Positions 13,813 to 43,322 of a stretch of 64,000 nucleotides of DNA are shown one piece after another (the first letter of the stretch is position 1; each line of letters opens with the position of its first letter). The position numbers and the translations under genes are program-made. The notes below the pieces were generated by a model. It saw nothing but the letters and a program-made list of their open reading frames with translations, did no database searches and was not told where the DNA came from. Source of the stretch: Microbacterium proteolyticum (GTDB taxonomy: Bacteria; Actinomycetota; Actinomycetes; Actinomycetales; Microbacteriaceae); NCBI RefSeq assembly GCF_029639405.1, contig NZ_CP121274.1:1364001-1428000 (forward strand), in the 5' to 3' direction.

Positions 13813-13842
13813 TCGGTGTCCTCCCGGTGGACGTGTGCCGGG

Positions 13843-13941: not shown

Positions 13942-13984
13942 CGGAAGCTGCCGGGGCGCGGGACGGCAACAAGGAGCCGGTCAC

Positions 13985-14809: not shown

Positions 14810-14812
14810 GCG

Positions 14813-15427: not shown

Positions 15428-15473
15428 GGCCACCTCCGGGGTGCAGTGTCATCGCTGAGCGTAGGCATCGTGC

Positions 15474-16726: not shown

Positions 16727-18616
16727 TCAGCGTGCGACGGCGGTCACCTCCGCCGACAGCGCCTCGGCCACGGCGCCCGCCACGCGGTCGGTCTGGCGCA
16801 GCGCCAGGGAATCCGATCGTGGACGCGTGAACGCGCCGGCCTCGGTCCCGGCCGTGAAGGGGCCGAGGGCGAAGAGGGTGGCGTGCGGCTGCCCCTCGCG
16901 GGAGACGACCCTGCCGTCGGGGTCGACGTCGATGCGCCCGAGCGAGCCCGCGAAGCTCTCGTCGGCAACGCGCACCTCTCGCCCGTGCCGCGACGCGAGT
17001 TCCCGCAGAGCGGGGTTGTCGCTGAAGGCGGCGCTCGGCGAGGGGAGCCACGCGTCGACGAGCACGCGCGCCTCGACCTCCACGTGCGGCGAGACCGCGA
17101 CGAACCCGCGTGCGGGGTCGACACGCACCGTGATGTCGGGCCCGAGGAACCGCACGACGCCGGCGTCGGCGAGCGCGAGGAGCTCTTCGAGCCGGTGCGC
17201 CGGCGGGCCCGAGGCGACGTAGCTGAAGAACGTGTGCCACGTGATCGGAAGGTCGACCGCGCGGGACCGGGCGCTCCAGCGCTCGGTGGGGATGTCGGCC
17301 AGAGCGAGGAACGATCCGAGGATCGTCAGGAACAGCGCCTGGGCGGCACTGCGCTCCTGCGTCGTCCGCAGCTGGAGATCTTCCACGATGTGCCGGCGGA
17401 CGCGATCGTGCACGGCCTGCGCGTCGGGGAAGGTCTCGCCCGCGAGCGGAACGTCGAGGGTGAGGATGTCGAACCTGTCGAGCGGGTCGGGCACGACCTC
17501 GGCGACGGCGGCCCGGAGGGCGACGACGTCGCCGTCGACGCGGCGAAGCGTCTCGCGGAACTCCTCCCAGGTCGTCGTCACCCGGTCCGGGTGTCCCGTG
17601 AACAGCTCGCGGTAGTGACCCCACACGAGCTCGCGGGCGAGGAGCGGCCACACGTCGTCGAGGAAGTCGATCGTGCCCGGGCGGGCGAGGAGCCCCGCGA
17701 CCGTCGGCGGCGTCAGGATCTCGAGCGCGGGTGGGTCGCCCTGGAGCTGCGACGACACCTTCGAGCGGTACGGCACGCCGCGCCGGGAACCGAGGTGAAG
17801 GCGCGGCTCCTGACCCGACGCGACGTAGCGCAGCCGCCCGTCCGCGTCTCGCTCGAAGCGCCCGCCCCGGCCCTCGGCCAGCAACACCACGGCATCCACC
17901 GATGCCAGTCCCATGCCCCGCACGATGGCGTCCTGGCCGGGGGCGAGCGCGCTCAGGTCGGCGTCGGCGGTGAACGCCGGTTCGATGTAGGTCAGGCCCG
18001 CCTGCGCCGCTTCGTCGAGCAGCTCGAGCGTCTCGCCGTCGGGCTCGCGGCCGTTGTGGCCGAGGGCGTACACGACGGTGTCGGCGACCAGGCGCGTCCC
18101 GTCGGCGAGGGCCACGTCCCACCCCTCGAGCGTGTCGTCCACCCACTGGACACTGCCCGGCTGCCAGTGCACGTCGACGCCCGCCGGGGCGATCGCGACC
18201 GTGCGGCGCCAGAACCAGTCGAGGTACAGGCTCTGGAGCCGACGCGTGGGGAAGCTGTCGCCGCGCAGCGACCGGACCTCGGCCAGCAGGGCGGGATCGT
18301 CGATCTCCACGTCGGGCAGCGTGTGGTCGCGGACGCGTTCGGCCCACTCGATCAGGGACGGTCCCGAGCGGATCGGCCCGGAGATCGTGCACGTCTCGTC
18401 GGTGAAGACGGTCACGTCGCGCGCCATCGAGTTCAGCTTCAGCAACGGCGACTGCTCGCGCCGCCAGATGCGGCCCGCGCCGGGCGGGAACGGGTCGACG
18501 AGGGTGACCTGCAGCGGCGGATCCTGGCGGGTCCGACGCGCGAGCAGGCGTTCGACGAGCATCACGGCCCGGGGACCGGCGCCGACGATCACCAGGCGGG
18601 CGGTACGGGAGGTCAT
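16727..18616 (-). CDS. FAD/NAD(P)-binding protein (PF13454-like)
   Basis: A 629-residue flavoprotein. The N-terminus has a dinucleotide-binding fingerprint VIVGAGPRAVMLVERLL. Further signatures are FPPGAGRIWRREQ, the KLNSMARDVTVFTD segment, DTVVYALGHNG around residue 195 and a second GMGLASVDAVVLL motif around 245. The C-terminal half is less conserved. Its ATG overlaps the stop of the upstream LLM monooxygenase (ATGA), so it is the last gene of a monooxygenase operon. It could act as an N-hydroxylating or reductase partner. No separate flavin reductase is visible in the window, which makes that role worth testing. Confidence 0.75.
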   Translation of the reverse strand: MTSRTARLVIVGAGPRAVMLVERLLARRTRQDPPLQVTLVDPFPPGAGRIWRREQSPLLKLNSMARDVTVFTDETCTISGPIRSGPSLIEWAERVRDHTLPDVEIDDPALLAEVRSLRGDSFPTRRLQSLYLDWFWRRTVAIAPAGVDVHWQPGSVQWVDDTLEGWDVALADGTRLVADTVVYALGHNGREPDGETLELLDEAAQAGLTYIEPAFTADADLSALAPGQDAIVRGMGLASVDAVVLLAEGRGGRFERDADGRLRYVASGQEPRLHLGSRRGVPYRSKVSSQLQGDPPALEILTPPTVAGLLARPGTIDFLDDVWPLLARELVWGHYRELFTGHPDRVTTTWEEFRETLRRVDGDVVALRAAVAEVVPDPLDRFDILTLDVPLAGETFPDAQAVHDRVRRHIVEDLQLRTTQERSAAQALFLTILGSFLALADIPTERWSARSRAVDLPITWHTFFSYVASGPPAHRLEELLALADAGVVRFLGPDITVRVDPARGFVAVSPHVEVEARVLVDAWLPSPSAAFSDNPALRELASRHGREVRVADESFAGSLGRIDVDPDGRVVSREGQPHATLFALGPFTAGTEAGAFTRPRSDSLALRQTDRVAGAVAEALSAEVTAVAR

Positions 18617-19965
18617 CGCGCGCCGATCGGGTCGGCGACCGGGGGCAGGTCGAGCAGGTCGTGCAGGGTCGCGCCGTCCTCGTACGAGCGGCGGTAGGAC
18701 CCCCGTTCCTGCAGGAGCGGGATGACACGGTCGGTGAACTCGTCCAGTCCGTGCGGGGTGAGGTGACCCACGACCGTGAATCCGTCGGTGGCCCGCTCCT
18801 GGACGTAGCGATCGATCTCGGATGCCACGTGCTCCGGCGTCCCGACGAACGTGTGCTGCGCGGTCAGGCGGATCACCAGCTCCCGGATGCTCAGCTTCTC
18901 CTCCGCCGCGAGGGCGCGGAGCTGGTCGATGCGCGCGCGGATCGCGGCGTGACGTCCGGCGAAGCCGTGCGCCGTCTCCGTCCCGGTGTCGGGCTCGACG
19001 TCGGGGAGGGGGCCGTCGGCGTCGTAGTCGCTGAAGTCGCGGTTCCAGATCTGCTCGAGGTAGGTGATGGCGGTCTGCGGCCGCACCTGCGCGAGGGCGA
19101 TCTCGCGCGATTTCTCGCGCGCGTCCTCGGCGGTGTCGCCGAGCACGAAGGTCACCGCGGGCAGGATCTTCAGCGAGTCCTCGCTGCGGCCGTGGGCGGC
19201 GAGGCGGCCCTTCACGTCGCGGTAGAACTGCTGCGCATCCTCGAACTCGTTGTGGAGGGAGAAGATGACGTCCGCGTGCGCGGTGGCGAAATCGCGTCCG
19301 TCGGCGGAGTCGCCGGCCTGCACGATCACGGGACGCCCCTGCGGCGACCGGGGGACGTCGAAGACCGCGTCGACGTCGAACAGGCGGCTCTCCTGCCGCA
19401 CGCGGGCGATCGCGTCCTCGCGCAGGAACTCGCCCGCCTCGGCATTCGCGACGATCGCGTCGGGACGCCACGACGACCACAGCGCTTTCGACAGGTCGGC
19501 GAACTCCGATGCCCGCGCGTAGCGGTCGGCGTGGTCGAGGTAGCCGCCGCGGCGGAAGTTGGCGCCGTGGAACGCGTCGGAGCTGGTCACCGCGTTCCAC
19601 CCGGCGCGTCCGCCCGACAGCAGGTCGAGCGTGCCGAGCTGGCGCGCGAGCTCGTACGGCTCGTTGAAGGTCGTGTTCAGCGTGCCGACGAGACCGATGT
19701 GCTCCGTCACCGCGGCCAGGGCGGTGAGGATCGCGAGCGTGTTCGGCCGACCGGCGACGTCGAGATCGTGGAGTCGGCCGCGGTGCTCGCGCAGCCGGAG
19801 CCCCTCGGCCAGGAAGATGTAGTCGAAGAATCCGCGCTCGGCGTTGCGGGCGAAGTGCTCGAACGACGAGAAGTCGATCTGGCTGCCCGCCGCGGGGTCG
19901 GTCCACACGGTGGTGTTGTTCACCCCGGGGAAGTGGGCGGCGAGGTGGATCCGACGGCGGCTCAT
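18613..19965 (-). CDS. LLM flavin monooxygenase, NtaA/SnaA/DszA type (cassette 1, third gene)
   Basis: A 450-residue FMNH2-dependent monooxygenase of the nitrilotriacetate/dibenzothiophene-sulfone monooxygenase group. Motifs include the IDFSSFEHFARNAERGFFDYIFLAEG start of the barrel in segments, VGTLNTTFNEPYELAR, LSGGRAGWNAVTS, GANFRRGGY, SPQGRPVIVQAG and the C-terminal VGTPEHVASEID. Family members cleave C-N or C-S bonds with O2 and reduced FMN. It is overlapped by the FAD/NAD(P) gene and overlaps the stop of the next LLM gene upstream. It is paralogous to the gene at 30817-32193 in the opposite arm. Confidence 0.85.
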   Translation of the reverse strand: MSRRRIHLAAHFPGVNNTTVWTDPAAGSQIDFSSFEHFARNAERGFFDYIFLAEGLRLREHRGRLHDLDVAGRPNTLAILTALAAVTEHIGLVGTLNTTFNEPYELARQLGTLDLLSGGRAGWNAVTSSDAFHGANFRRGGYLDHADRYARASEFADLSKALWSSWRPDAIVANAEAGEFLREDAIARVRQESRLFDVDAVFDVPRSPQGRPVIVQAGDSADGRDFATAHADVIFSLHNEFEDAQQFYRDVKGRLAAHGRSEDSLKILPAVTFVLGDTAEDAREKSREIALAQVRPQTAITYLEQIWNRDFSDYDADGPLPDVEPDTGTETAHGFAGRHAAIRARIDQLRALAAEEKLSIRELVIRLTAQHTFVGTPEHVASEIDRYVQERATDGFTVVGHLTPHGLDEFTDRVIPLLQERGSYRRSYEDGATLHDLLDLPPVADPIGAR

Positions 19966-21167
19966 GCGCCGACCTCCTGACGGGCGAAACGGCTGGCGAG
20001 GCGGGGGAGTCCGAGACGCTCCCGCAGGGTGCCGGCTCCGTCGTCGGGCGACAGGATGCCGGCGGCCGACGCCGCCGGGACCACGCGCTCGGCGATCGCC
20101 GAAAGGTCGGCGGGCAGCCGCGCGGGACGCAGCCGCACCCCGTCGACGCCGGCGTCCCGGAGCGCACGGATCTCCTCGACGACGTCGTCCGCGGTGCCGA
20201 CGACCACCCGGGCGTCGGTCGCGAGCGCATCCGCGTCCTCGAGGCGGCGCCAGGCCGCGGCCGCCGCGGCGGGCGTGTCCTCGACGAGGACGAGCAGGTC
20301 GGCGAACACGCGCAGGCGCTCCCCCTCGGTGCGGACGGCGTCCGCGGCATCCGCGAGCTCGTCCAGGATGCCGCCGACGGCGGACGCCCCCGCGGGCGTG
20401 ATGAACACGACGTCGGCGTGCTCGGCGGCGAAACGGTAGGGCACGCTCTGGTGCGCGAGGGCCGTGATGAGCGGCTGCCCCTGCGGCGAGCGCGGAACGA
20501 TCGATGCGCCTGTGATCGAGAAGAACTCTCCCTCGAACTCGATGCGGTGTACGCGCTCGCGGTCGAGGAACTTCCCGGTCTCGAGGTCGCGCACGATCGC
20601 GTCGTCCTCCCAGGAGTCGGCGAGCCGCCGGATGGCATCCACGACCTCGCCCGCCTCGCGGAAGGCCGCGAGCAGCGCAGGGTCGTCCTCGACGCGGCCG
20701 GAGGCCGGGAGACCGGTGGGGCCGTCGACGCGGCGTCCGAAGTTCGCGCGCTCCTGCGGCGACGATCCGGCGACGATGCGCGCGCCGGCGCGGCCGTGGC
20801 TGACGTGGTCGAGGGTCTGGAGCCCCGTCGCGAGGTGGAACGGCTCGGGGTGGGCGGTGGTGACCGTGGGGATCAGCCCGAGGCGGTCGGTCGCCGGGGC
20901 GAGGAAGGAGGCGACGAGCACCGCGTCGAGGCGGCCGCGGACGCGGTCGCGCCGGGTCTCGGCATCCGCGTCGAACGAACGACCCCCGAGGCTCAGCGCG
21001 TCCTCGATCGTGGCGAACAGGATGCCGCCGCCGTCGGCGACGCGCGCGAGGTCGCGCCAGTATCCCGCGGAGGTCAGCTCCGTCGGCCGCGCCGTGGGCT
21101 CGCGCCAGGCGGCGGGGTGCCAGCCCGCGCCGTCCAGGGCGACGGCGAGGTGGATTCGTTCGGGCAT
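19962..21167 (-). CDS. LLM-family oxidoreductase (cassette 1, second gene)
   Basis: A 401-residue luciferase-like protein beginning IHLAVALDGAGWHPAAWRE, with GLIPTVTTAHPEPFHLA, LDHVSHGRAGARIV, a WEDDAIVRD segment and RSPQGQPLITALAHQ. The C-terminus LRERLGLP is shared with its paralog at 29597-30805. The ATG at 21167 has GGAGGGAG upstream; a longer in-frame start exists but lacks a site. Its stop overlaps the following LLM start. A promoter-like TTGTGC-N17-CACAGT lies 40-70 bp upstream. The substrate is unknown. Confidence 0.82.
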   Translation of the reverse strand: MPERIHLAVALDGAGWHPAAWREPTARPTELTSAGYWRDLARVADGGGILFATIEDALSLGGRSFDADAETRRDRVRGRLDAVLVASFLAPATDRLGLIPTVTTAHPEPFHLATGLQTLDHVSHGRAGARIVAGSSPQERANFGRRVDGPTGLPASGRVEDDPALLAAFREAGEVVDAIRRLADSWEDDAIVRDLETGKFLDRERVHRIEFEGEFFSITGASIVPRSPQGQPLITALAHQSVPYRFAAEHADVVFITPAGASAVGGILDELADAADAVRTEGERLRVFADLLVLVEDTPAAAAAAWRRLEDADALATDARVVVGTADDVVEEIRALRDAGVDGVRLRPARLPADLSAIAERVVPAASAAGILSPDDGAGTLRERLGLPRLASRFARQEVGA

Positions 21168-21204
21168 CGTGCTCTCCCTCCGGGGCGGGAACGGCCCGCC
21201 GAGA

Positions 21205-21238
21205 GGCCCACTGTGCCGTCGGCCCGGTGGCGGCACAA
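21205..21238 (-). promoter_or_regulatory. Promoter candidate sharing a 12-bp block with 23008-23019
   Basis: On the minus strand TTGTGC (21233-21238) and CACAGT (21210-21215) are 17 bp apart. The -10 is embedded in GCACAGTGGGCC, identical to the block at 23008-23019. It lies in the 100-bp gap between the 341- and 401-residue LLM genes. Confidence 0.5.
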
Positions 21239-21267
21239 CACGTTCCGTAACGCAGCGCCGCGCGAGG

Positions 21268-22293
21268 TCATGTGACGTCGGATTGCGCTGACGGACTCCA
21301 TCCGAGCAGCGGTCCGAGGCGCCCGGCGAGGTCGTCCAGGATCTGCGCGTAGTCGTCGGGTGCGAAGTCGAAGGGCAGCGCGAAGGCGACTTCGTCGACC
21401 TCGGGGAACGCGGCTGACGATCGCAGGCGGTCGGCGATCTCCTCCGACGTGCCCACGATGTCGGCGGCGAAGAGCATCCCGCGCGGCCCCTGGGGGATCC
21501 CGACGCGCGCGCTCCGCGCCGCGGCGTACGCCGAGTACCGTTCGCGCTGCTCGGGCGTGGCCGAGTCGGTCGGGATGACGACGAGGCCCTGCGACACCCG
21601 CGCGGACTCGCCGTCGGGATGCCGATCGCGGTACAGCCGGATCTGCGTGTGCTGCTCGGTGTCGAAGTCGGTCGTGTCGACCGACTGGATCACGCTGCTG
21701 GTGAGCAGGTGGAAGCCGTTCTCGGCCGCCCAGGTGGTGGATGCCGGGCTCCCGGCGCCGTACCAGAGGCGGTCGGCGAGCCCGGGCGAATGCGGTTCGA
21801 TCCGCTCCGAGTACTCCTCGATGCCCTCGCGGCCCGCGAACGCGCTCACGCGGTCGCCGGCGAGGAACCCGCGCAGGCGCGCGAGCCGCTCGTACCCGAA
21901 GTCCTCGTGCTCGACGGTCCCGGGGTACAGCGCGGAGCCGATCTCGTCGAGGCGGCGCGGGGGACCGACGGAGAACCCCGGCTCCAGCCGACCGCCGGTG
22001 AGCACGTCCACCGTCGCCAGGTCCTCCGCAAGGCGGAAGGGGTTCTCGAAGCCCAGGGGGATGACCGCGGTCCCGAGGCGGATGCGGCTCGTGCGCTGCG
22101 ACGCCGCGGCGAGCACGGCGACGGGCGACGAGATGCCGTATTGCAAGTGGCGGTCCCGCAGCCACGCGCTGTCGAAGCCCAGACTCTCGGCGCGCTCGAT
22201 GATCGCGAGCGTCGCCTCGTGCCCGGCGCGCGGATTCTCGCGGTCGAACAGACCGATGGTGAGGAAGCCGAGGGAGCGGAGCGGGCGGGTCAC
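21268..22293 (-). CDS. LLM-family oxidoreductase (cassette 1, first gene)
   Basis: A 341-residue single-domain luciferase-like protein (SLGFLTIGLFD, LAAASQRTSRIRLGTAVIPL, FRLAEDLATVDVLTGGRL, a C-terminal VGTSEEIADRLRS). It resembles alkanesulfonate/limonene-type LLM enzymes. It starts with a GTG that overlaps the stop of the GNAT gene (GTGA). It is the counterpart of 28539-29570 in the plus-strand arm, sharing the AAASQRTS-IRL and PFRLAED-ATVDVL blocks. The substrate is unknown. Confidence 0.82.
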   Translation of the reverse strand: MTRPLRSLGFLTIGLFDRENPRAGHEATLAIIERAESLGFDSAWLRDRHLQYGISSPVAVLAAASQRTSRIRLGTAVIPLGFENPFRLAEDLATVDVLTGGRLEPGFSVGPPRRLDEIGSALYPGTVEHEDFGYERLARLRGFLAGDRVSAFAGREGIEEYSERIEPHSPGLADRLWYGAGSPASTTWAAENGFHLLTSSVIQSVDTTDFDTEQHTQIRLYRDRHPDGESARVSQGLVVIPTDSATPEQRERYSAYAAARSARVGIPQGPRGMLFAADIVGTSEEIADRLRSSAAFPEVDEVAFALPFDFAPDDYAQILDDLAGRLGPLLGWSPSAQSDVT

Positions 22294-23006
22294 GCGGGCG
22301 TCCGAACGGCCGCGAACTGGTTGCGGCGGCGCAGCGCGAAACCGAGGCGCTCGTACGCCGCGATCGCGCCGAGGTTCGAGGCCGCCGCGTGGAGCAGGGC
22401 CCGTTCGCCGCGCGCCTGGATGTGGAAGGCCACGTCGAGCACCAGTCGAGAGGCGAGGCCCTGGCGTCGGTGTTCGGCATCCACCGAGACCGCGCTGATC
22501 TCGGTCCAGCCGGTGGGGTGCAGGCGCTCGCCCGCCATCGCGATCAGACGTCCGTCGCGACGGATGCCGATGTAGCGGCCGAGCTCGTACGTCCGCGGCC
22601 GGAAGGGGCCGGGCTGGTTGCGGTCGACGATCGCGAGCATGTCCGCGGCGTCGTCGGGACCAAGCTCGATCGCCTCCTCGTCGGGGCGGGGGCGCAGCGC
22701 GTCGGTCTCGACCAGCTGCACGCCTTCCCCTCCGCCGAGGTACTCCCAGCCGGCCGGGTACCCGCCCTCGTAGCCCGAGAGCCCGACCTCGCTGCCGGGA
22801 CCCACGAGCTCGCGGAGAGCGTCCCAGACGCCCGGCTCGTCCCACGTGCGCACCGCGACGAACGGGGCGACGTCGCCGGGATAGCGGCGCACGAGATCGC
22901 CGCCGATCGCGAAGGAGGCGTGCGGGCCGGTCAGCGAATGCCAGGCCGCGTTGTCGAGGACGGTGGCGTCGGCGTGCGGAACGTCGAGCGTTGCGGAGGA
23001 GGTCAC
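22290..23006 (-). CDS. GNAT N-acetyltransferase (FR47-like)
   Basis: A 238-residue acetyltransferase with a variable N-terminal half and a C-terminal GNAT core. It has SAVSVDAEHRRQGLASRLV (acetyl-CoA pyrophosphate loop) and AASNLGAIAAYERLGF (the C-terminal Asn/Tyr helix). The start is set at GTG 23006, because a TTGCAC-N17-CACAGT promoter ends 6 bases before it, giving a leaderless start; upstream in-frame sequence is low quality. It heads the minus-strand LLM operon. N-acetylation of an amino acid substrate before monooxygenation would fit S-alkylcysteine salvage logic. Confidence 0.78.
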   Translation of the reverse strand: MTSSATLDVPHADATVLDNAAWHSLTGPHASFAIGGDLVRRYPGDVAPFVAVRTWDEPGVWDALRELVGPGSEVGLSGYEGGYPAGWEYLGGGEGVQLVETDALRPRPDEEAIELGPDDAADMLAIVDRNQPGPFRPRTYELGRYIGIRRDGRLIAMAGERLHPTGWTEISAVSVDAEHRRQGLASRLVLDVAFHIQARGERALLHAAASNLGAIAAYERLGFALRRRNQFAAVRTPA

Positions 23007-23007
23007 C

Positions 23008-23041
23008 GGCCCACTGTGCGCCGCCCGCGCCACGCGTGCAA
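23008..23041 (-). promoter_or_regulatory. Promoter of the minus-strand LLM operon
   Basis: Minus-strand TTGCAC (23036-23041), 17 bp, CACAGT (23013-23018), then 6 bases to the GTG at 23006. The block GCACAGTGGGCC is shared exactly with 21205-21216. The remaining 195 bp to the divergent permease gene show no clear promoter or riboswitch. Confidence 0.55.
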
Positions 23042-23235
23042 GCCGAGGGCCGCGGTTCGCAACGGGCGCGCGCTTATGTGACAGCGCGTGAAGTCCGGCG
23101 TCGGTCCGTGACGCTCGGCGACACCGGGTTTCGCGCGCGTCCCGCCCGGTCGGCATCCGGGCACATCCTCGTTCGAAACCGGTCCGCCATCCCCCGCGGC
23201 CCGGAAGCCCCCGATACGGAACTGAGGACGTCGGC

Positions 23236-26914: not shown

Positions 26915-26922
26915 GGAGCAGC

Positions 26923-29570: not shown

Positions 29571-29596
29571 CCGCGATCCCCTGACAAGGAGCACTC

Positions 29597-30805: not shown

Positions 30806-30816
30806 GAGGACCGACC

Positions 30817-32193
30817 ATGACCACGAAAAAGCAGATCATCCTCGCCGCCTACGTGGGCGGCGTCAACGAGCACACCGCGTGGGAGCACCCGGATGCCGGG
30901 AGCCAGATCGCGTTCTCGACCTTCCGGCACGTCGCGCAGACCGCGGAGCGCGGCCGATTCGACTACTTCTTCCTCGCCGAGGGCCTCGCCCTGCGGGCGC
31001 GCGACGGACGCATCTTCGATCACGACATCGCCGGGCGCCCCGACACCCTGCCCGTGCTGGCCGCGCTCGCCGCGGTGACCGAGCACCTGGGGCTCGTCGG
31101 CACGCTGAACGCCACCTTCAACGAGCCGTACGAACTGGCTCGCCAGATCGCGAGCCTCGACCATCTGTCGGGCGGCCGCGCCGGGTGGAACGTCGTCACC
31201 TCGTTCGACGCCTTCACGGGCGCCAACTTCCGCCGCGGCGGTTTCCTGCCGCACGCCGACCGATACGTCCGCGCCGAGGAGACGGTGGCGACCGTGCGGG
31301 AGCTGTGGGACTCCTGGGCGGCCGATGCCATCGCCGCGGACAAGGATGCCGGGACGTTCCTCCGCGACCCGCGCGCGGGTGCGTTCGCGCATCACGGCAG
31401 CCAGTTCGACATCGAGGGCCGCTTCACGGTTCCCCGCAGCCCCCAGGGTCGACCCGTGATCGTGCAGGCGGGGGTGTCGCCCCAGGGGCGCGACTTCGCG
31501 GCATCCACCGCCGATGCGATCTTCTCGCCGTTCTCGACCCTCGAGGAGGGACGGGCGTTCCGCGAGGACATCCGCGCCCGCGCCGCGCGCTTCGGTCGTG
31601 ATCCGGAGCACGTGAAGATCCTGCCGTCGGCCGGGTTCGTGCTCGGCGACAGCCGGGCCGACGCCGAGGAGAAGGCGCGGCACATCCTCGATCAGCAGCT
31701 GAGCGACCGCACGATCCAGGTCACCTTCGAGCAGGTCTGGAACCGCGACCTGTCGGCCTACGACCTCGACGGCCCCGTTCCGGACGTCGACCCCGATCCG
31801 GAGGCTCCGTCCTTCATCCAGGGGCGGGCGTTCATCTTCCAGGACCGCTTCGAGACCGTCCGCGCGTGGCGCGAGCTCGCAGCGAAACGGGGCCTCACGT
31901 TCCGGGGCCTCGCCCGCGCGGTCGCCCGCGGCCCGCAGTACGTCGGAACCCCCGCGCAGGTTGCCGAGGAGCTCGACGCCTTCGTCCAGCAGGGCGGCGG
32001 CGACGGGGTCGTGCTCGGCTCGCACGTGGTGCCCTCGGGCCTCGACGAGTTCGTCGACCTCGTGGTTCCGCTGCTGCAGGAGCGCGGATCGCTGCGTACC
32101 GAGTACGAGGGCACGACCCTGCGGGACAACCTGGGCCTCCCGGCCCCGGATCGCCTCGTCGAACCCGCCCTCGTCGGCGCGGTCGGACGTTGA
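30817..32193 (+). CDS. LLM flavin monooxygenase, NtaA/SnaA/DszA type (cassette 2, third gene)
   Basis: A 458-residue FMNH2-dependent monooxygenase. Motifs VGTLNATFNEPYELAR, LSGGRAGWNVVTSFDAF, GANFRRGGFLPHADRY, SPQGRPVIVQAGVS and YVGTPAQVAEELD mirror those of the minus-strand paralog at 18613-19965. The ATG follows GAGAGG. With the two genes before it, it repeats the 34x-40x-45x residue order of the opposite arm. Confidence 0.85.
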   Translation: MTTKKQIILAAYVGGVNEHTAWEHPDAGSQIAFSTFRHVAQTAERGRFDYFFLAEGLALRARDGRIFDHDIAGRPDTLPVLAALAAVTEHLGLVGTLNATFNEPYELARQIASLDHLSGGRAGWNVVTSFDAFTGANFRRGGFLPHADRYVRAEETVATVRELWDSWAADAIAADKDAGTFLRDPRAGAFAHHGSQFDIEGRFTVPRSPQGRPVIVQAGVSPQGRDFAASTADAIFSPFSTLEEGRAFREDIRARAARFGRDPEHVKILPSAGFVLGDSRADAEEKARHILDQQLSDRTIQVTFEQVWNRDLSAYDLDGPVPDVDPDPEAPSFIQGRAFIFQDRFETVRAWRELAAKRGLTFRGLARAVARGPQYVGTPAQVAEELDAFVQQGGGDGVVLGSHVVPSGLDEFVDLVVPLLQERGSLRTEYEGTTLRDNLGLPAPDRLVEPALVGAVGR

Positions 32194-32215
32194 GCATCGA
32201 GAGAGGAACCGGACG

Positions 32216-33085
32216 ATGACCACGACCGCGCACGAGACCCTCGAGCGGGCTCGATTCGCCTCGGAGTGGGAGGACTGGCATCGCGCCCACGAAGCGCGCC
32301 GGGCAGACCCCCACGGCTTCCTCGCCGTGACGGCGCTGTTCTGGATCGCGGAGGAGTCGCAGACCTTCCCCGGCATCCCCGGGCGGTGGCGCACGTCGCT
32401 CGACGGACCGGTGGTCGAGCTGGAGGAGGGCGAGTGGCTCCGTCTGGGCGACGCCACGATCACGGGGCGGCACGCGTTCGGGGCGATCGCCGAGCGCGGG
32501 GGAGTGACCGTCGGGTTCGACGGGGGCGTGATCGAGGTGGCGCGCCGTGGGGGCCGCGACATCCTCCGCCCCCGTCGGCCCGACTTCCCGTTCCTGGGCT
32601 CCTACCGCGGGACGCCCGCCTACGCGCCCGATCCGAAGTGGCGGGTCGAGGCGACGTTCGTGCGTTACGCCGCTCCGCGTCGGCACGAGGTGGGCGCGGC
32701 TGTGGACGGGCTGTCGCACGTCTACGAGTCGCCGGGGTATCTCGAGTTCGACATCGACGACGAGACGTTCCGGCTCGTGGCTTTCCCGGGGCACGCGGAG
32801 GGCACGCTGACCGTCCTGTTCACGGATGCCACGAGCGGTCGCACCACGTACGCGGCGAACCGATCGCTGAGCGTCGACGCGCCCGGAGCCGATGGCCGCA
32901 CGGTCGTGGACTTCACTCGCGCCGTCAACCTGCCGTGCGCCTACACTGACTTCGCGACGTGCCCCCTGCCCCCGGCCGAGAACCGGTTGACGGTCGCCGT
33001 CGAGGCGGGGGAGAAGACCCCCGTCGCCCGAGCCGAGGGGGAGGTCACCGCCCGCGGGATCGAGCCGACGGGCACCGCCCGGTGA
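32216..33085 (+). CDS. DUF1684 domain protein
   Basis: A 289-residue protein of the DUF1684 family (EDWHRAHEARRADPHGFLAVTAL, the beta-rich core with YAPDPKWRVEATFVRY, and the C-terminal NLPCAYTDFATCPLPPAENRL motif, each cited in part). The family is common beside flavin or amino-acid catabolism genes and has no established biochemical function. It lies 22 bp after an LLM gene with GAGAGGAACC upstream, and its TGA overlaps the MFS start (GTGA). A chaperone or hydrolase role in the monooxygenase pathway is only a guess. Confidence 0.75.
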   Translation: MTTTAHETLERARFASEWEDWHRAHEARRADPHGFLAVTALFWIAEESQTFPGIPGRWRTSLDGPVVELEEGEWLRLGDATITGRHAFGAIAERGGVTVGFDGGVIEVARRGGRDILRPRRPDFPFLGSYRGTPAYAPDPKWRVEATFVRYAAPRRHEVGAAVDGLSHVYESPGYLEFDIDDETFRLVAFPGHAEGTLTVLFTDATSGRTTYAANRSLSVDAPGADGRTVVDFTRAVNLPCAYTDFATCPLPPAENRLTVAVEAGEKTPVARAEGEVTARGIEPTGTAR

Positions 33086-35106
33086 GCCCGGCGGCGGCCG
33101 AGGCTCCCGGCGCGGACTCGGCCGCCGCCCGAGCGGCGCTCGCGTGCTGCCTGGCGGCCGGATTCGCGACCCTGCTCGACGCGACCTCCGTCGCCTACAC
33201 CGCCCCCGCCGTCGCGGTGTCCTTGAACGCGGAGACCTCGGGGGTGCAGTGGTTCCTCGCGGCGTACTCGCTGACGTTCGGTCTGGGGCTCGTGCCGGCG
33301 GGTCGCCTCGGCGATGCGTTCGGCCGTCGCGAGCTGTTCGTCGGGGGGATGCTCGCCTTTCTCGGGGGAGCCGTCGCGTCGGCACTCGCCCCGTCGGTGT
33401 GGCTGCTCGTCGTCGGCCGACTGGTGCAGGGGCTGGGTGCGGGTTTCGTCAGCGCCCAGGTCCTGGGCCTCATCCAGGACACGTCCCGCGGCTCGCAGCG
33501 TGTGCGCGCGCTCGGCGCTTACAGCGCGATCGGCGCGCTGGCCGCCATCGTCGGTCCGCTCGCGGCGGGCGCGCTTCTGTGGCTGTTCCCCGCCGACATC
33601 GGATGGCGGCTGGTGCTCCTGACCCCCGTGCCGTTCGCGGCGGTCGCGATCTGGCGGGGCCTGCGCTCCCTCCCGCCCGCGCGCCCGTCCCGGCTGACCA
33701 CGGGTCTCGACCTCCCGGGGATCGCTCTGCTCGGCGCGGTCGTGGTGCTGGTCACCCTCCCGGTGATCGATCCCGGGATGCCGCCCGCGCAGGTCGCGGG
33801 CACCCTCGGCGCCGTGGCGGTGCTCGTGGTCGTGCTGACCGTGTGGGAGCGCGGATACGCGCGGCGGGGCCGGCTCGCGCTGTTCGCTCCCGCCCTCCTG
33901 CGCTCGGGCGGGTTCCTCGCCGGCAACGTCGTCGCGCTCCTGTGGTTCGGGAGCCTGCTCGCGCTCTCCACCGCCGTGACGGTGTATTTCCTGCAGGCGG
34001 CACACCTCCCGGCGTTCCTCGTCGCCGTCGCGTTCATCCCCGGTTCGCTGGCGCGGCTCCTCACGTCGCGGGCGAGTTCCGCGATCTTCGCCCGGTTCGG
34101 ACCCCTGACGGTGATCGGCGGGCTCCTCGTCGAGCTCCTGGCGCTGCTGCTCCTGCTGGGGTCGAGCAGCGTGTGGGGTTCGTGGCCGCTGCTGCTGGCG
34201 GTGGTGCTCCTGCAGATCGTGATGGGGGTGGGGGGCGGGCTCGTCGAACCCGCGTTGCGGGCGGTCACCCTCGGCTACGCCCCACCGACGCTCCACGGCG
34301 TGGCGGCATCGTTCCTCCAGCTGACCCAACGGCTCTCGGCCACGTTCTTCGTGGCCCTCACCACGGGGATCCTCCTCGGCGCCACCGCCGCGCCCTCGCT
34401 GTCGACGCTGCGCATCGCCGTCGCGGTGTGCGGGGGAGCCGTCCTGGTGGCCCTCGCGGTGGCCCTCGCCTCTTCCGCGTTCCGCGCCGGCCCGACGACT
34501 CCCGGACCGGTCGGGGAGGGCCGCGATGCGCGCGTGTTACCCGCCGTTTCCGGCGCCGCCGCCGGTGACGTCCCGCCCCGCGATACTGGCCCGATGACGG
34601 CGGCGCACGGGCGATGGACGATCGAACGGGTCGACTGGGACGACGAGCGCGCGGTCGCGCTGCGCGCGGCGATGGACGCGGAGATCAGCCCGCGGTACGC
34701 CGAGGTCTTCGCCGCGTTCGACGACGACACCGCGGCCGTGCTCGCCGAGGACTTCGCGGTCGATCCGGCGACGATCGTCGATGTCGTGCTGATCCTGGAT
34801 GCCGCCGGAGAACCGATCGGGCATGCCGCTCTGCGCGCGCTCGGCGGCGAGCTCGAGGTCAAGCGCGTGTTCGTGCACCGACGCGCGCGGGGGACGGGCG
34901 CGAGCCGTGAGCTCATGGCCGAGCTGGAGAGGCTCGGCGCCGCCCGCGGTGCGACGCGCCTGATCCTGCAGACCGGTGACCGCCAGCCGGAGGCGATCGC
35001 GCTCTACGAGCACATCGGGTATCACGCGATCGACATCTTCCCGCCCTACGTCCGTTTCCCCGCATCGCGGTGCTTCGCGAAGCCCCTCGAGGCGGTCCGC
35101 GCGTGA
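33082..35106 (+). CDS. MFS transporter fused in frame to GNAT acetyltransferase
   Basis: A 674-residue open frame. Residues 1-475 are a drug:proton-antiporter-type MFS permease (about 12-14 helices; GRLGDAFGRRELFV, GRLVQGLGAGFVSAQVL). Residues about 505-674 are a GNAT domain (VKRVFVHRRARGTGASRELM, ALYEHIGYHAI). No stop separates them. The linker at 34495-34593 includes a TTA codon (34537-34539), very rare in such genomes, and a GATACT six bases before an in-frame ATG at 34594. The GNAT may therefore be a separate leaderless gene whose upstream neighbour lost its stop. The GTG start overlaps the DUF1684 stop. Export plus acetylation of a pathway product is plausible. Confidence 0.7.
   Translation: MSPAAAEAPGADSAAARAALACCLAAGFATLLDATSVAYTAPAVAVSLNAETSGVQWFLAAYSLTFGLGLVPAGRLGDAFGRRELFVGGMLAFLGGAVASALAPSVWLLVVGRLVQGLGAGFVSAQVLGLIQDTSRGSQRVRALGAYSAIGALAAIVGPLAAGALLWLFPADIGWRLVLLTPVPFAAVAIWRGLRSLPPARPSRLTTGLDLPGIALLGAVVVLVTLPVIDPGMPPAQVAGTLGAVAVLVVVLTVWERGYARRGRLALFAPALLRSGGFLAGNVVALLWFGSLLALSTAVTVYFLQAAHLPAFLVAVAFIPGSLARLLTSRASSAIFARFGPLTVIGGLLVELLALLLLLGSSSVWGSWPLLLAVVLLQIVMGVGGGLVEPALRAVTLGYAPPTLHGVAASFLQLTQRLSATFFVALTTGILLGATAAPSLSTLRIAVAVCGGAVLVALAVALASSAFRAGPTTPGPVGEGRDARVLPAVSGAAAGDVPPRDTGPMTAAHGRWTIERVDWDDERAVALRAAMDAEISPRYAEVFAAFDDDTAAVLAEDFAVDPATIVDVVLILDAAGEPIGHAALRALGGELEVKRVFVHRRARGTGASRELMAELERLGAARGATRLILQTGDRQPEAIALYEHIGYHAIDIFPPYVRFPASRCFAKPLEAVRA
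34594..35106 (+). CDS. Alternative: stand-alone GNAT acetyltransferase
   Basis: Alternative reading of the C-terminal part of the preceding frame: a 170-residue GNAT protein starting ATG at 34594 with a GATACT -10 box (34582-34587) six bases upstream and no ribosome-binding site, as in other leaderless genes here. It has the GNAT acetyl-CoA loop RRARGTGASRELM and the terminal NPF-like aromatic region. Its stop overlaps the next GTG. Only one of the two readings need be correct. Confidence 0.4.
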   Translation: MTAAHGRWTIERVDWDDERAVALRAAMDAEISPRYAEVFAAFDDDTAAVLAEDFAVDPATIVDVVLILDAAGEPIGHAALRALGGELEVKRVFVHRRARGTGASRELMAELERLGAARGATRLILQTGDRQPEAIALYEHIGYHAIDIFPPYVRFPASRCFAKPLEAVRA

Positions 35107-36206
35107 GCGAGGAGCGGGTCGACGTCGCCGTCGTCGGGGCCGGCGCCATGGGGTCCGCGACCGCGTGGCACCTGGCCCGAGCCGGACGCGACGTCACGGT
35201 CTTCGAGCAGTTCGAACCGGGACACGTCCGCGGTGCCTCGCACGGAGCCTCCCGCAACTTCAACGTGGCCTACCCCCAGCCCGAGTACCTCGCGTGGCTG
35301 CGCGACGCGCGGGTCCTGTGGCGCGAGCTCGAGCAGGAGTCCGGCGCACGGCTGCTCGAGACCACCGGCATCGTCACGCACGGTCCGGGGTTCGACGTCG
35401 CGGCGGCTGCGGAGGCGATCGCTGCGGGCGGGTTCGACACCGAGGTCGTCGACCCGGTGTCGGCCGCCGCGCGGTGGCCGGGCTTCCGCTTCGCGACCGA
35501 CGTCCTCCACACCCCCGGGGCGGGACGCCTGGATGCCGACGCCTCGGTGTCCGCGTTCCTCGCCGGGGCCGTGGCATCCGGAGCCCGCCTTGCCTGGCGC
35601 ACGGCCGTGACCGACGTGGTCGTGCACGGCGACGAGGACGTCCGCTTCACCGTGACGGATGCCGCGGGCCCGCGTCGCGTGCGCGCCCGGCGCCTCGTCA
35701 GCACCGCGGGGGCGTGGACGGCCAAGACCCTCGCGGGGGTCCGCGGGGTCACCCTGCCCGCGCTGCGGGTCACGCAGGAGCAGCCGGCGCACTTCCGGCC
35801 GCACGATGCCGCCGCGGTGTGGCCGGGTTTCAACCACCACCGCGACGCCGATGATCCCGCGACGTCGTGGTTCGCGGCGCCGGTCTACGGCATGCTGACG
35901 CCGGGGCAGGGCGTGAAGGCCGGGTGGCACGCGGCGGGCCCGGAGGTCGATCCGGACCACCGCAGCTTCGTGCCCGACCCGCGTCTGACGGATGCGCTGG
36001 TGCGATACGCCCGCGAGTGGCTGCCGGGCGTGGATGCCGATGCCTTCACCGAGATCACGTGCACCTACACCTCGACGGTCGACGCCCGGTTCGTGCTCGA
36101 ACGGGTCGGGCCGATCGTCATCGGCGCCGGGTTCTCGGGTCACGGCTTCAAGTTCACGCCGGTCGTCGGACGGACGCTCGCCGAGCTGGCCGGAGACCGC
36201 GGGTGA
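35103..36206 (+). CDS. FAD-dependent amine oxidase, sarcosine/N-methyltryptophan oxidase family
   Basis: A 367-residue DAO-fold flavoenzyme. VDVAVVGAGAMGSATAWHLAR is the dinucleotide fingerprint, GASHGASRNFNVAY resembles the covalent-flavin neighbourhood of MSOX relatives, and the C-terminal GAGFSGHGFKFTPVVGRTLAELA is the family signature containing the usual GHGFK. It oxidises a secondary amine or amino acid to imine with H2O2 release. The GTG start overlaps the preceding stop. Within the LLM cluster it could process the amine released by C-N cleavage, which is inference. Confidence 0.85.
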   Translation: MSEERVDVAVVGAGAMGSATAWHLARAGRDVTVFEQFEPGHVRGASHGASRNFNVAYPQPEYLAWLRDARVLWRELEQESGARLLETTGIVTHGPGFDVAAAAEAIAAGGFDTEVVDPVSAAARWPGFRFATDVLHTPGAGRLDADASVSAFLAGAVASGARLAWRTAVTDVVVHGDEDVRFTVTDAAGPRRVRARRLVSTAGAWTAKTLAGVRGVTLPALRVTQEQPAHFRPHDAAAVWPGFNHHRDADDPATSWFAAPVYGMLTPGQGVKAGWHAAGPEVDPDHRSFVPDPRLTDALVRYAREWLPGVDADAFTEITCTYTSTVDARFVLERVGPIVIGAGFSGHGFKFTPVVGRTLAELAGDRG

Positions 36207-36244
36207 CGGCGGGACGGTCGCCCAGCCTCGAGGGGGAGGGGCAC

Positions 36245-37117
36245 GTGAGCGGGGGATCCTCGGCCGTCGCGCTCGACGCGAGTGCTCTCGATCTCGTGGT
36301 GGCGGCACTCGCGGGCCGGGACGACCGGCGCGGGATCCTGTCCGTGCTGTCGAGGTTCTCGGTCCTGGTGATCGGCGAGCCGCGCGAGGGCGACGGGCCT
36401 CCGCTCGCACCGGATGCGCACGCCGTCGCCGCGGTGCTCGCGCGGCTGCTCCCCGCCACCGGGATCCTGTGGACCGCCACCCCCGGCGACCTCCCCTACA
36501 ACCTCGCGCGACGCTCGCTCACGCTCGACCACCTGTCGGATGCACGGGCCGGGGTCGTCTTCGGAGCGCTGCCCGACGACCCCGAGGAGGAACGCATCCG
36601 CGTGGTCCGGGACCTGTGGAACTCGTGGCCGGTCGAGAGCCTGATCGCCGACCGCGAGCGCGGGGTCTTCGCCGAGACCGACGGCATCCGCGCGATCTCG
36701 CATGCCGGACCTCGCTTCCCCGTCGCCGGTGCCCTGGCCACCCCCAGCAGTCGGCAGGGAGAACCCGTGAGCGCCTGGGTGCCCCGGTCGCCCGGGGCGG
36801 TCGCCGCCGTCGGGTCGCTGGTCGACCTCGTGATCGTCGACCTCGACGGCGGTGACGCGGACGATCTGCGGTCGGCCGCGCGGTCCGCGGGGGCGCAGGT
36901 ACTGCTCCGCGGGGACGATTCCGGGATCGTCGGAGCCGAGGCGGTTCCCGGGGAACGCCCGCTCCGCCTCCTCGGCGCGTCGGCGATCCGAGCGGCCGTG
37001 GGCGCGGTCGAACCTCCGCGCGGGCTCCCGGCGGGGAGCCTCCGCGAACGGCTGGGCCTGCGTCCGCGCCGGCTCGATCTGTCCGACCGTCCGCGCGCGT
37101 TCGGGGGTGTTCGATGA
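36245..37117 (+). CDS. Divergent, shortened LLM-family protein
   Basis: A 290-residue relative of the 401/402-residue LLM proteins. It keeps a PYNLARRSLTLDHLSDARAGVV segment (in part), a WNSWPVESLIADRE stretch, a PSSRQGEPV equivalent of SPQGQPL and the LRERLGLRP tail. It lacks the N-terminal GAGWHPAAWRE strand and shows deletions in the barrel, so it may not bind FMN. GTG 36245 is chosen because a GGGGGAGGGG lies just before it; GTG 36203 overlapping the preceding stop is the alternative. Its stop overlaps the next ATG. Confidence 0.6.
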   Translation: MSGGSSAVALDASALDLVVAALAGRDDRRGILSVLSRFSVLVIGEPREGDGPPLAPDAHAVAAVLARLLPATGILWTATPGDLPYNLARRSLTLDHLSDARAGVVFGALPDDPEEERIRVVRDLWNSWPVESLIADRERGVFAETDGIRAISHAGPRFPVAGALATPSSRQGEPVSAWVPRSPGAVAAVGSLVDLVIVDLDGGDADDLRSAARSAGAQVLLRGDDSGIVGAEAVPGERPLRLLGASAIRAAVGAVEPPRGLPAGSLRERLGLRPRRLDLSDRPRAFGGVR

Positions 37118-38304
37118 GCCGCCGCGGCGGACGCGTCCTCCTGAACGTCAACCTGCAGGGCGTGGGGCAGCGGCCGGCGGCATGGCAGGTGCAGGACCTG
37201 GCGGCCGACGCCCAGCTGCGCGCCGACCATTGGACGGGCATCGCGGCGGTCGCGGAGCGCGGGTGCCTGGATGCCGTCTTCTTCGCGGACCATCCCAACA
37301 TCGACGATCCGAATCCTCGTCCGCTGGGCTTGGCCGAGCCGTTCTCGGTGGCGGCGACCATCCTGGCCGGAACCGAGCACCTGAGCGCCGTGGTGTCGGC
37401 TTCGACCACGTACAACGACGCTCCCGACCTCGCCGGGCGGCTGCTCACGCTGGACGCCCTGAGCGGCGGTCGGATCGGCTGGAACGTCGTCACGACCTAC
37501 TCGACATCGTCGGCGGCGAACTTCGGCCACCTCCCCCTGCCGCCCCGCGCGGAGCGGTACGCGCGGGCGGAGCGCGTCGTCGACGAGGTCCTCGACCTGT
37601 GGCACGCGTCCTCCGACCGCGAGCCCGTGCTGTTCCAGGCGGGCGGATCGGATCAGGGCCGGGACCTGGCCGCACGGCGTGCCGACGGCGTGTTCACCGT
37701 GGAGCTCAACCGGGCCGCGGCGGAGCGCAAGTACGCCGAGCTGAAGAGGGCGGCCGCCGCCGCGGGGCGGGCGGGACGGCCGTGCATCACTCCCGGTCTG
37801 TCGCTGGTGATCGGCAGCACCGAGGAGGAGGCGCAGCGATCGTTCGACGACATGGAGTCGCGCGTCGCCGACGGGTACGCGCTGCGGTCGCTGGGCGCCG
37901 TGCTCGGCGCGGACGCGACGGGCCTCGACCTGGACGCGCCTCTCCCCGCGGAACTGCTCGACGCCCCCTGGGACCCGGCCACGCACGCCGCGAGCGTGGG
38001 CTATCGCCTCACGTTCCTCGACTGGATCCAGACCCGACGCCATCTTCCGGTGCGCGCCGTGCTGCGGCAGTTCGGCGGCTACGGCGCCCGCATCGTCATC
38101 GGCACGCCCGAGCGCGTCGCGGACGAGATCGAGGAGTGGTACGAGACGTTCGCCGCGGACGGCATCAACCTCATGCTCGACAGGTATCCCGCCGGTCTCG
38201 AGACGTTCGTCGACGAGGTCGTGCCGCTGCTGCAGGCACGGGGACTCGTGCAGCGGGAGTACACCGCGGCATCCCTCGCGGAGGCGGTCGCGCCCCGCCC
38301 GTGA
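37114..38304 (+). CDS. LLM flavin monooxygenase, NtaA/DszA type (third-cassette member)
   Basis: A 396-residue FMNH2-dependent monooxygenase. WTGIAAVAERGCLDAVFFAD, SASTTYNDAPDLAGRLLTLD, LSGGRIGWNVVTTYSTS, AANFGH and VIGTPERVADEIEEW place it with NtaA/SnaA/CmoJ/YxeK-like enzymes, but shorter than the 450-residue paralogs. It starts in an ATGA overlap with the divergent LLM gene. It is convergent with metY, and the adjacent minus-strand GNAT, amino-acid ABC transporter and M20 genes together resemble the Bacillus S-alkylcysteine salvage set. Confidence 0.83.
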   Translation: MSRRGGRVLLNVNLQGVGQRPAAWQVQDLAADAQLRADHWTGIAAVAERGCLDAVFFADHPNIDDPNPRPLGLAEPFSVAATILAGTEHLSAVVSASTTYNDAPDLAGRLLTLDALSGGRIGWNVVTTYSTSSAANFGHLPLPPRAERYARAERVVDEVLDLWHASSDREPVLFQAGGSDQGRDLAARRADGVFTVELNRAAAERKYAELKRAAAAAGRAGRPCITPGLSLVIGSTEEEAQRSFDDMESRVADGYALRSLGAVLGADATGLDLDAPLPAELLDAPWDPATHAASVGYRLTFLDWIQTRRHLPVRAVLRQFGGYGARIVIGTPERVADEIEEWYETFAADGINLMLDRYPAGLETFVDEVVPLLQARGLVQREYTAASLAEAVAPRP

Positions 38305-38341
38305 CCGCGGAGCGACGCGCTCCCGCCGCGAGCGGCGCGGG

Positions 38342-39643: not shown

Positions 39644-39662
39644 TGGTCCGTCCTCGATCCGC

Positions 39663-40205: not shown

Positions 40206-40235
40206 GGCATCCATTCTTCCGGTGGGCGAACGCGA

Positions 40236-40265
40236 CGCGGCCCGGTCCGTGGGGACCGGGCCGCG
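40236..40265 (-). terminator. Strong hairpin downstream of the amino-acid ABC operon
   Basis: Perfect 13-bp stem (CGCGGCCCGGTCC and its complement) with a 4-nt loop, 9 bp past the stop of the solute-binding protein gene. It lies before the start of the GNAT gene and so separates the two transcription units, at least partly. Confidence 0.75.
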
Positions 40266-40273
40266 CGGGACGC

Positions 40274-43233: not shown

Positions 43234-43322
43234 GTGTGCTCCTCGGGTTCCGACCGACGGCGGGCGCCGGTCGGGTGAGGGTCACGGTACGGCCGGGCGG
43301 GAGGCCTCGCGAGGCGCGGATT

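Follow-up and report, generated by a model that had tools for sequence, protein, structure and literature searches.

Each part of a gene island that we have analyzed in Microbacterium proteolyticum has a known counterpart. The island occupies positions 16727-44790 of a 64,000-nucleotide stretch of the 3.97-Mb genome (G000:C2:1364001-1428000, hereafter the window), and its core is a two-gene unit, B then C, encoding two proteins related to the luciferase-like monooxygenases (LLM). The closest catabolic systems that have been described are the ytn/cmo and scm (yxe) clusters of Bacillus subtilis, home of CmoO, CmoJ (earlier YtnJ) and ScmK, which share with the island, by protein family, an acetyltransferase, an LLM monooxygenase and a hydrolase. 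The Bacillus ytm-ytn operon also includes a cystine-type importer. Acetyltransferase, monooxygenase and deacetylase are reported to occur together in the Bacillus clusters (PMC12757645), and CmoJ is reported to cleave N-acetyl-S-alkylcysteine sulfoxides after CmoO has oxidized the sulfur (PMC10863075).

LLM subunits that work in pairs are known from two other settings. In bacterial luciferase, LuxA-LuxB, a catalytic LLM subunit is joined in a heterodimer to a non-catalytic one, although the enzyme differs from B-C in LLM subfamily, chemistry and context. The other is the heterodimeric LLM hydroxylase NtfO1-NtfO2 (likewise StmO1-StmO2) of streptoseomycin-type biosynthesis (PDB 7C2R/7E36), in which a short, lidless subunit is joined to one of the NtaA type; it is suggested there that complementary losses might explain why NtfO1 and NtfO2 heterodimerize (PMC8027225). 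That system is biosynthetic, whereas the island would be catabolic.

In transcription order, the minus strand of the island carries GNAT1, A1 (341 residues), B1 (401), C1 (450) and NAD9, which ends at 16727. On the plus strand follow an Opp/Nik-type importer, A2 (344 residues), B2 (402), C2 (458), DUF1684, MFS-GNAT, DAO, B3 and C3, and to the right of C3, again on the minus strand, lie an O-acetylhomoserine-sulfhydrylase-like enzyme, GNAT2, a cystine-like ATP-binding cassette (ABC) importer and an M20 hydrolase. Several gene starts in the block, those of GNAT1 and GNAT2 among them, are predicted. Set beside the Bacillus clusters, the island pairs C with B, has two cassettes plus a third pair, and employs an Opp-type importer. 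The best explanation, to which we assign a probability of roughly 0.6, is that this is a sulfur-starvation island that frees sulfur from imported S-substituted amino acids or peptides, with C as the catalytic subunit of the B-C unit and B as its heterodimer partner. Were B a partner of this kind throughout its family, heterodimeric LLM enzymes would be a common catabolic design and no longer a rarity known from bioluminescence and a single antibiotic pathway; what are at present annotated as individual flavin-dependent oxidoreductases would turn out to be subunits. The findings have some relevance to the sulfur supply of soil bacteria and to biodesulfurization.

B and C as a two-gene unit

On the minus strand of the window, B1 (19962-21167) overlaps C1 (18613-19965) by 4 bp, and on the plus strand B2 (29597-30805) is followed by C2 (30817-32193). 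The C proteins are flavin mononucleotide (FMN)-dependent monooxygenases of the NtaA/DmoA family, and C1 is CmoJ/YtnJ-like, its best PDB match being CmoJ itself (6ask, 7.7e-87). The curated cut-off of TIGR03860, 279.7 bits, is exceeded by C1 (414), C2 (425.3) and C3 (306.5) and missed by B1 (225.2), B2 (231.7) and B3 (73.1).

The regularity of the pairing was assessed in 120 fetched loci and the window, some strains occurring twice; the loci had been fetched by searching B or, for L201-L205, B3 or C3. C lies directly downstream of B on the same strand in 127 of 129 B genes, with a spacing of -8 to +61 bases and a 4-base overlap in 39 of the adjacent pairs. Conversely, 121 of the 123 C genes with more than 50% identity to C1 or C2 have B directly upstream, a count that is biased upward because of the way the loci were found. 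Tree distances of B and C across 65 pairs are strongly correlated (r 0.92; 0 of 1000 permutations as high), shared ancestry contributing to the value. No B-C fusion was seen in the first 80 loci, which were searched for frames over 700 residues. One of the two B genes without a following C is cut by a contig end (L061), and one of the two C genes without an upstream B stands at a locus edge (L103); the others are considered below.

The company kept by this unit is more variable. The initial annotation had looked to cassette order as a test among relatives, and here the B-C order recurs, while the full A-B-C order does so only in part. A was considered as a general member of the unit and set aside: a homologue (at least 35% identity) lies within 9 kb in only 2 of 74 pairs from outside Microbacterium. 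Homologues of A do occur near B in Microbacterium, where A is directly upstream of B (250-base limit) in 10 of 16 B2-type and 3 of 29 B1-type pairs. Elsewhere, in 39 of the 74 pairs, the gene directly after C encodes another LLM, similar to that of locus L044, whose best model is TIGR04036 at a score below cut-off, and the third oxygenase of the locus seems to be interchangeable. The same neighborhoods include an L044-like gene for a glutathione-S-transferase C-terminal domain (35 of 74), a polar-amino-acid ABC importer within 9 kb (45) and a GNAT1-like gene within 9 kb (30) or immediately upstream of B (27); the importer and GNAT1 counts are lower bounds, some of the flanks being short. The order in Streptomyces NBC_01558 is ABC-GNAT-B-C-LLM-LLM, adjoining genes for homoserine O-acetyltransferase, O-acetylhomoserine sulfhydrylase and ssuE, and that in R. 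aetherivorans (L078) is permease-ATPase-binding protein-DAO-B-C.

Loss of FMN-site residues in B

Residues were followed in 116 distinct B1/B2-type and 116 C1/C2-type proteins, using as landmarks the NtfO2 residues that contact docked FMN, most of them mutated in PMC8027225. Five of these, F56, A58, T133, Y155 and Q203, are kept in every one of the 116 C proteins; in B they are kept in 0, 0, 2, 0 and 0 of 116, respectively. The replacements are themselves uniform, with T in place of F56 in 115 B proteins, E in place of A58 in 113 and F in place of Y155 in 111; the F222 position holds F or Y in 115. In NtfO2, F56A and T133A are reported almost to abolish activity and Y155A and Q203A to cut it by about 80 and 90%, and A58 is named as lining the docked FMN, with no mutant given in that account (PMC8027225). 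Retention of these residues in one subunit and their loss in the partner, as in the NtfO type, is therefore a property of the B-C pairs at all five positions.

Conservation reaches 95% or more at 100 positions of B, a few of which sit in the patterns used for the locus search, so that the family must be under strong selection; 23 of the 100 fall at columns where C conserves another residue. An AlphaFold2 model of B2 (42 sequences, pLDDT 86.7) has an NtaA-type fold, and among solved structures it comes nearest to ordinary enzymes, BdsA (TM 0.79) being one of them. A segment missing from the alignment of B1 and B2 is presumed to be the lid. It is quite probable that B has been conserved as a partner protein of LLM fold in which the usual FMN site is missing.

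The third pair comes closest to the NtfO arrangement. B3 (36245-37117, plus strand) overlaps C3 (37114-38304) by 4 bp, and the best PDB matches of the two are 7e36_A and 7e36_B, which together make up the NtfO1-NtfO2 heterodimer; a B3 model, itself a weak one (5 sequences, pLDDT 70.1), likewise finds its closest fold in 7e36_A (TM 0.61). C3, of the NtaA family, is without some 40 residues that align in C1 and C2. About half of this stretch is missing from NtfO2 and from the C3 homologues of L202-L204, and nearly all of it from that of L201. B3 keeps the stretch and is without the C-terminal lid region. As judged from the alignment, the stretch missing from C3 would be the side loop of PMC8027225, and B3-C3 would then show the same kind of complementary loss, a catalytic subunit without the loop and a partner with the loop but without the lid.

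The initial annotation had taken B3 and C3 for a decayed copy of the second and third cassette genes, a reading that finds no support. The reading frames of both are open. C3 shares 34% identity with C1 and C2, and B3 shares about 30% with B1, B2 and C2 and 25% with C1. B3-C3 pairs occur in four other genomes of the genus (L201-L204), and in a fifth (G055) a weak B3 match adjoins a C3 match. The pair is a third unit of the B-C kind. The count of eight LLM genes holds for the seven with PF00296 matches over cut-off; B3 (290 residues) has no Pfam match, and its place in the fold is suggested by a partial, below-cut-off match to TIGR03860 (1.9e-20, 73.1 bits) and by the sequence match to the LLM chain 7e36_A (1.1e-12).

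An alternative is that B is itself an active enzyme, carrying out a separate step with another cofactor (e.g. F420) or a re-shaped flavin site, in which case its adjacency to C would merely reflect a shared pathway. The 23 positions at which B and C conserve different residues would fit a re-purposed site, T101 is mostly kept, and the public names of these proteins are LLM class flavin-dependent oxidoreductase, FMNH2-dependent monooxygenase and coenzyme F420-dependent reductase. F420-dependent LLM enzymes are also possible in this genome because it has an FbiC/CofH-like F420 biosynthesis gene (L206, G000:C2:738090-739067), albeit one below the TIGR03551 cut-off (260 bits vs 374). We nonetheless consider an active B unlikely, given its near-obligate adjacency to C, the missing presumed lid, the family-wide loss of five of eight NtfO2 FMN contacts, and the fact that B3, the same kind of gene, is best matched by NtfO1, a subunit of a known heterodimer.

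By analogy with NtfO1-NtfO2, B and C are likely to form a heterodimer, with a number of observations counting against this view. In C1 and C2 the lid is retained, as is the loop missing from C3, so they show no structural need of a partner, and the NtfO feature of a loopless catalytic subunit is absent from them. B1 and B2 are nearer to ordinary NtaA-type enzymes in sequence and fold: 7e36_A is only the tenth PDB match of B1 by sequence, and NtfO1 only rank 26 by fold for the B2 model, behind ordinary NtaA-type enzymes. Among the NtfO2 residues whose mutation abolishes activity, T101 is kept in 109 of 116 B proteins and H151 is not conserved even in C. The pairing, too, has exceptions, namely a Frankia B gene (L072, 10001-11200) after which no C is seen before the contig ends 1.1 kb further on, a C gene in L102 that truly stands without an upstream B, and the R. 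erythropolis plasmid pMGMM8_3 (L250, 6676-9215), on which C precedes B. Conservation of the interface was dropped as evidence for a heterodimer, the presumed dimer-helix region being, by eye, rich in conserved columns in C also.

The broader proposition, that B is a widespread actinobacterial family of non-catalytic LLM proteins on which CmoJ-like C-S monooxygenases depend as obligate heterodimer partners during sulfur salvage, stands at about even odds. Literature searches, which covered titles and abstract openings with subscription journals mostly outside, turned up among the papers listed no description of B as a non-catalytic partner, PMC8027225 alone being similar in kind. The heterodimer proposal suggests a simple search rule: inspection of the gene directly upstream of an NtaA/CmoJ-type gene may reveal two-subunit desulfurizing monooxygenases, whose catalytic subunits may have been assayed alone.

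Sulfur-poor proteins and the proposed pathway

The island is set apart from its surroundings by a scarcity of cysteine and methionine. Together these account for 47 of 9019 residues (0.52%) in 23 block genes and 202 of 7896 (2.56%) in 21 other genes of the window (Fisher 2.7e-29). For K, N, W, Q, Y, H, F and I the difference between the two sets stays below 20%. Gene by gene, the block ranges from 0.00 to 1.49% and 20 other window genes from 0.79 to 5.00% (mean 2.46%). With one gene caller throughout, the block has 0.50% Cys+Met against 1.41-2.36% in 20 stretches of 20 kb from the same genome, and genes of at least 200 residues with no Cys or Met number 6 of 21 in the block and 3 of 218 in the background stretches. 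After the start residue there is neither amino acid in B1, C1, B2, C2 and B3 (five of the eight LLM proteins) or in the cystine-like binding protein; A1 and A2 have one Met each, and C3 has four Cys/Met in all. The borders are sharp, with 3.24% in the gene to the left of NAD9 and 4.29% in the next called gene to the right of M20. The initial annotation had placed its LLM region at 16727-38304, but the gene at 16727 is NAD9, an FAD-NAD(P)-binding protein and not an LLM gene, and the Cys/Met-poor block continues past 38304 to 44790.

The same depletion is seen in other loci. In 116 distinct B1/B2-type pairs the median Cys+Met of B is 0.00%, and that of the C partners is 0.00% in the 29 B1-type and 0.22% in the 87 B2-type pairs. 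The values for Streptomyces NBC_01558 are 0.00-0.60% across its importer, B, C, both further LLMs and the sulfhydrylase, 0.78% for the GNAT and 1.05% for the homoserine O-acetyltransferase. Within the Microbacterium genome, the eight block LLM genes are lower than 18 other LLM matches (p 0.0005), in a comparison that counted matched stretches only and left aside 2 of 20 other matches not open in the frame used; several of the other matches are themselves low, and the one at C2:3163704 has no Cys or Met. The genome has 27 PF00296 matches, two of them pieces of one frame, so LLM genes as such are common in it; the initial annotation was right to call eight of them in 22 kb unusual inasmuch as, among the places listed, other 22-kb stretches hold no more than 2-3.

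Lying far below the genome background, the block has the composition of a sulfur-sparing protein set and therefore represents, very probably, sulfur-scavenging machinery. The near absence of Cys and Met is a purely compositional mark that ties to sulfur starvation a set of proteins whose annotation goes no further than LLM class flavin-dependent oxidoreductase. The multi-step oxidation of a transported organosulfur or organonitrogen compound that had been proposed for the locus can be narrowed to sulfur because of this depletion and because of the N-acetyltransferase, cystine-like ABC, M20 and O-acetylhomoserine-sulfhydrylase-like neighbors; on the organonitrogen side stand only the NtaA family name and the amine oxidase. 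It is most improbable that the island degrades an organonitrogen chelator (NTA/EDTA-type) for nitrogen or carbon. C does belong to the NtaA/DmoA family, and an amine oxidase and importers are present, but the depletion predicts sulfur limitation, sulfur-metabolism genes neighbor the unit in both the window and Streptomyces, and the best PDB match of C1, YtnJ/CmoJ, is a C-S enzyme.

A route for sulfur salvage can be sketched in which, as in the scm and ytn clusters of Bacillus, the substrate is acetylated, oxidized and deacylated. The S-substituted compounds, whether amino acids or peptides, would be taken up by the Opp/Nik-type importer (23236-28539, plus strand; two permeases, a fused ATPase and a substrate-binding protein, 0.19-0.63% Cys+Met) and by the polar-amino-acid, cystine-like importer (40274-43233, minus strand; SBP_bac_3, ATPase and permease). 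The N-acetyltransferases GNAT1 (22290-22994, minus strand; FR47/GNAT Pfam matches), first gene of the cassette 1 operon, and GNAT2 (39663-40199, minus strand) would acetylate the imported substrate. The stand-alone LLM oxygenase A would then oxidize the sulfur, A1 (21268-22293, minus strand; PF00296 5.3e-29) being a candidate sulfoxidase and A2 (28536-29570, plus strand; 3.7e-26) its equivalent in cassette 2, after which the B-C unit would cleave the C-S bond with reduced FMN and O2. C would be the catalytic subunit, and B, lacking FMN-site residues and lid, would most likely heterodimerize with it as NtfO1 does with NtfO2. Finally, the M20 peptidase/deacylase (43474-44790, minus strand; 0.92% Cys+Met, the last Cys/Met-poor gene of the block) would remove the acyl group, and the sulfhydrylase-like enzyme of the pyridoxal phosphate-dependent Cys/Met-metabolism family (38342-39643, minus strand; PF01053 6e-116, TIGR01326 482 bits with a cut-off of 495) would capture the freed sulfur. 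The two A-B-C cassettes presumably serve different substrates. By protein family, GNAT1, GNAT2, C1/C2 and M20 are candidate parts of an S-alkylcysteine (mercapturate-type) salvage cluster, in which A and M20 would be putative counterparts of CmoO and the N-acetylcysteine deacetylase. As for the substrate class, N-acetyl-S-substituted cysteine is the best guess, with a chance of about one half of being correct.

Published expression data agree with an organosulfur reading. NtaA-type genes are reported to be induced on organosulfur sources in Gordonia NB4-1Y, where the NTA monooxygenase RS14730 rises strongly over sulfate with all three sources tried and RS14155 with two of them, octanesulfonate excepted; the LLM genes RS14160, RS14165 and RS14725, whose tags are neighboring, are listed as expressed on such sources, and the higher-expressed oxygenases average 0.88-1.33% sulfur amino acids vs 3.01% for the proteome (PMC7661421). 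In Rhodococcus IGTS8, cystine and methionine transport proteins are reported as highly enriched on dibenzothiophene, and a cystine-transporter ATPase, its binding protein and a sarcosine oxidase, consecutively tagged peg5783-5785, appear in a protein table (PMC8557817). Judging by locus tags and annotation, these Gordonia and Rhodococcus genes, which resemble those of the island in annotation and order, may be or flank B-C pairs. A literature search for S-alkylcysteine salvage in Streptomyces returned nothing among the matches listed.

Several points tell against the proposed route. None of the NCBIfam models shown is matched by A above cut-off: the best for A1 (107.4 bits) and A2 (96.7) is TIGR04027 (KPN_01858; cut-off 412.9), and the best for the Opp binding protein (361.8) is TIGR04028 (KPN_01854; cut-off 468.5), so none of the three is a member of these families. 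M20 best fits PRK07906, for which it is over cut-off, a subfamily without a named function, and the two PF01613 flavin reductases of the genome both lie outside the window. Depletion of Cys and Met indicates sulfur limitation and not which compound is used; moreover, two window genes outside the block have as little as 0.79 and 0.89%, and LLM matches elsewhere in the genome range from 0.00 to 2.93%. The published expression data, for their part, concern genes matched only by annotation and tag order.

Separate lineages of the two cassettes, and other genes

As the initial annotation observed, the minus-strand order of 341-401-450 residues (22293-18613) mirrors the plus-strand order of 344-402-458 (28536-32193) gene for gene, and an oligopeptide-type ABC transporter lies between the arms. 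Identities over MAFFT-aligned positions are 42.1% for A1-A2, 51.9% for B1-B2 and 55.2% for C1-C2. The conclusion drawn from this, that one cassette was locally duplicated and inverted and that a third copy is now decaying, is very unlikely to be correct. In its favor, beyond the gene-for-gene correspondence, the divergent B1-C1 / B2-C2 layout around the importer recurs in L028, L031, L033, L179 and L180; A1 was not detected on the cassette 1 arm of these five loci, and L033 and L180 have identical B1 proteins.

The trees tell against it. A scan of genome contigs with B1-B2 alignment patterns confirmed at least 560 places, of which the best 80 were kept, ranked by B2 likeness, and B and C trees were built from 65 pairs each. 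In either tree the 29 cassette 1 rows from Microbacterium cluster as a single group (100/100), and the B tree places cassette 2 together with Herbiconiux, Pseudoclavibacter, Millisia, Nocardiaceae and Nakamurella. Forcing both Microbacterium cassettes together lowers the likelihood by 44 in the B tree (approximately unbiased test, p-AU 0.041, near the limit) and by 188 in the C tree (p-AU 1.35e-60); row L195, a Microbacterium sequence adjoining cassette 1 in both trees, was excluded from the constrained clade. The two trees have 34 of 62 splits in common and are not fully congruent, a split uniting cassette 1, L195 and 13 Streptomyces-type rows being present in the C tree and absent from the B tree. 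The matching genes thus belong to the same families but fall in clades that are not sisters, evidence against the duplication of a single cassette: the arms did not arise by local duplication, and the two A-B-C cassettes are non-sister lineages.

The distribution of the genes points the same way. B (E up to 1e-60) is found in 31 of 198 genomes of the genus, this one included, of which 19 have the cassette 1 type only, 4 the cassette 2 type only and 8 both; in G007, G070, G169 and G190 a distance of 25 to 350 kb separates one B gene from the other. At the same threshold and again counting this genome, C3 is found in 6 of the 198 genus genomes and B in 17 of 396 genomes of the phylum.

Four genes of the block remain. 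NAD9 (16727-18619, minus strand; PF13454 7.8e-37, 0.79% Cys+Met), the last gene of cassette 1, comes directly after C1 in 26 of the 29 distinct B1-type pairs of Microbacterium and is a candidate flavin-handling partner that might supply reduced flavin. The DUF1684 gene (32216-33085, plus strand; PF07920 4.6e-46) likewise comes directly after C2 in 13 of the 16 distinct B2-type pairs of that genus. It is followed on the same strand by the gene for an MFS transporter fused to a GNAT acetyltransferase domain (33082-35106), at 1.49% Cys+Met the maximum of the block, and by DAO (35103-36206), an FAD-dependent amine oxidase that is N-methyltryptophan/sarcosine-oxidase-like but below curated cut-offs.

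Between the divergent genes GNAT1 and permB, at 22995-23235, is a short block of GTGACG-like half-sites that is partly conserved in 7 Microbacterium loci and could be a regulator site. A Cys-rich leader peptide was also sought and rejected, the candidates in the window looking like chance frames and the annotated leader of a Streptomyces locus (L251) having no Cys. An Rfam scan of the window at gathering thresholds gave zero matches. Elsewhere in the genome, an NtaA-like LLM match (L017, G000:C2:3163704-3164759) whose matched stretch has zero Cys/Met adjoins a metY-like gene, with a PF01613 flavin reductase, one of two in the genome, some 10 kb away (3174561-3174980), and this region is maybe a second sulfur locus. 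Outside the block, the window flanks (1311-15433 and 47495-60635) encode amidases, an allantoate-amidohydrolase-like M20 protein, molybdopterin-dehydrogenase-type subunits, an amidohydrolase nearest to 8-oxoguanine deaminase (below cut-off), a creatininase-family protein, a TctA transporter and a sensor kinase, an assortment that looks like amide and purine nitrogen use.

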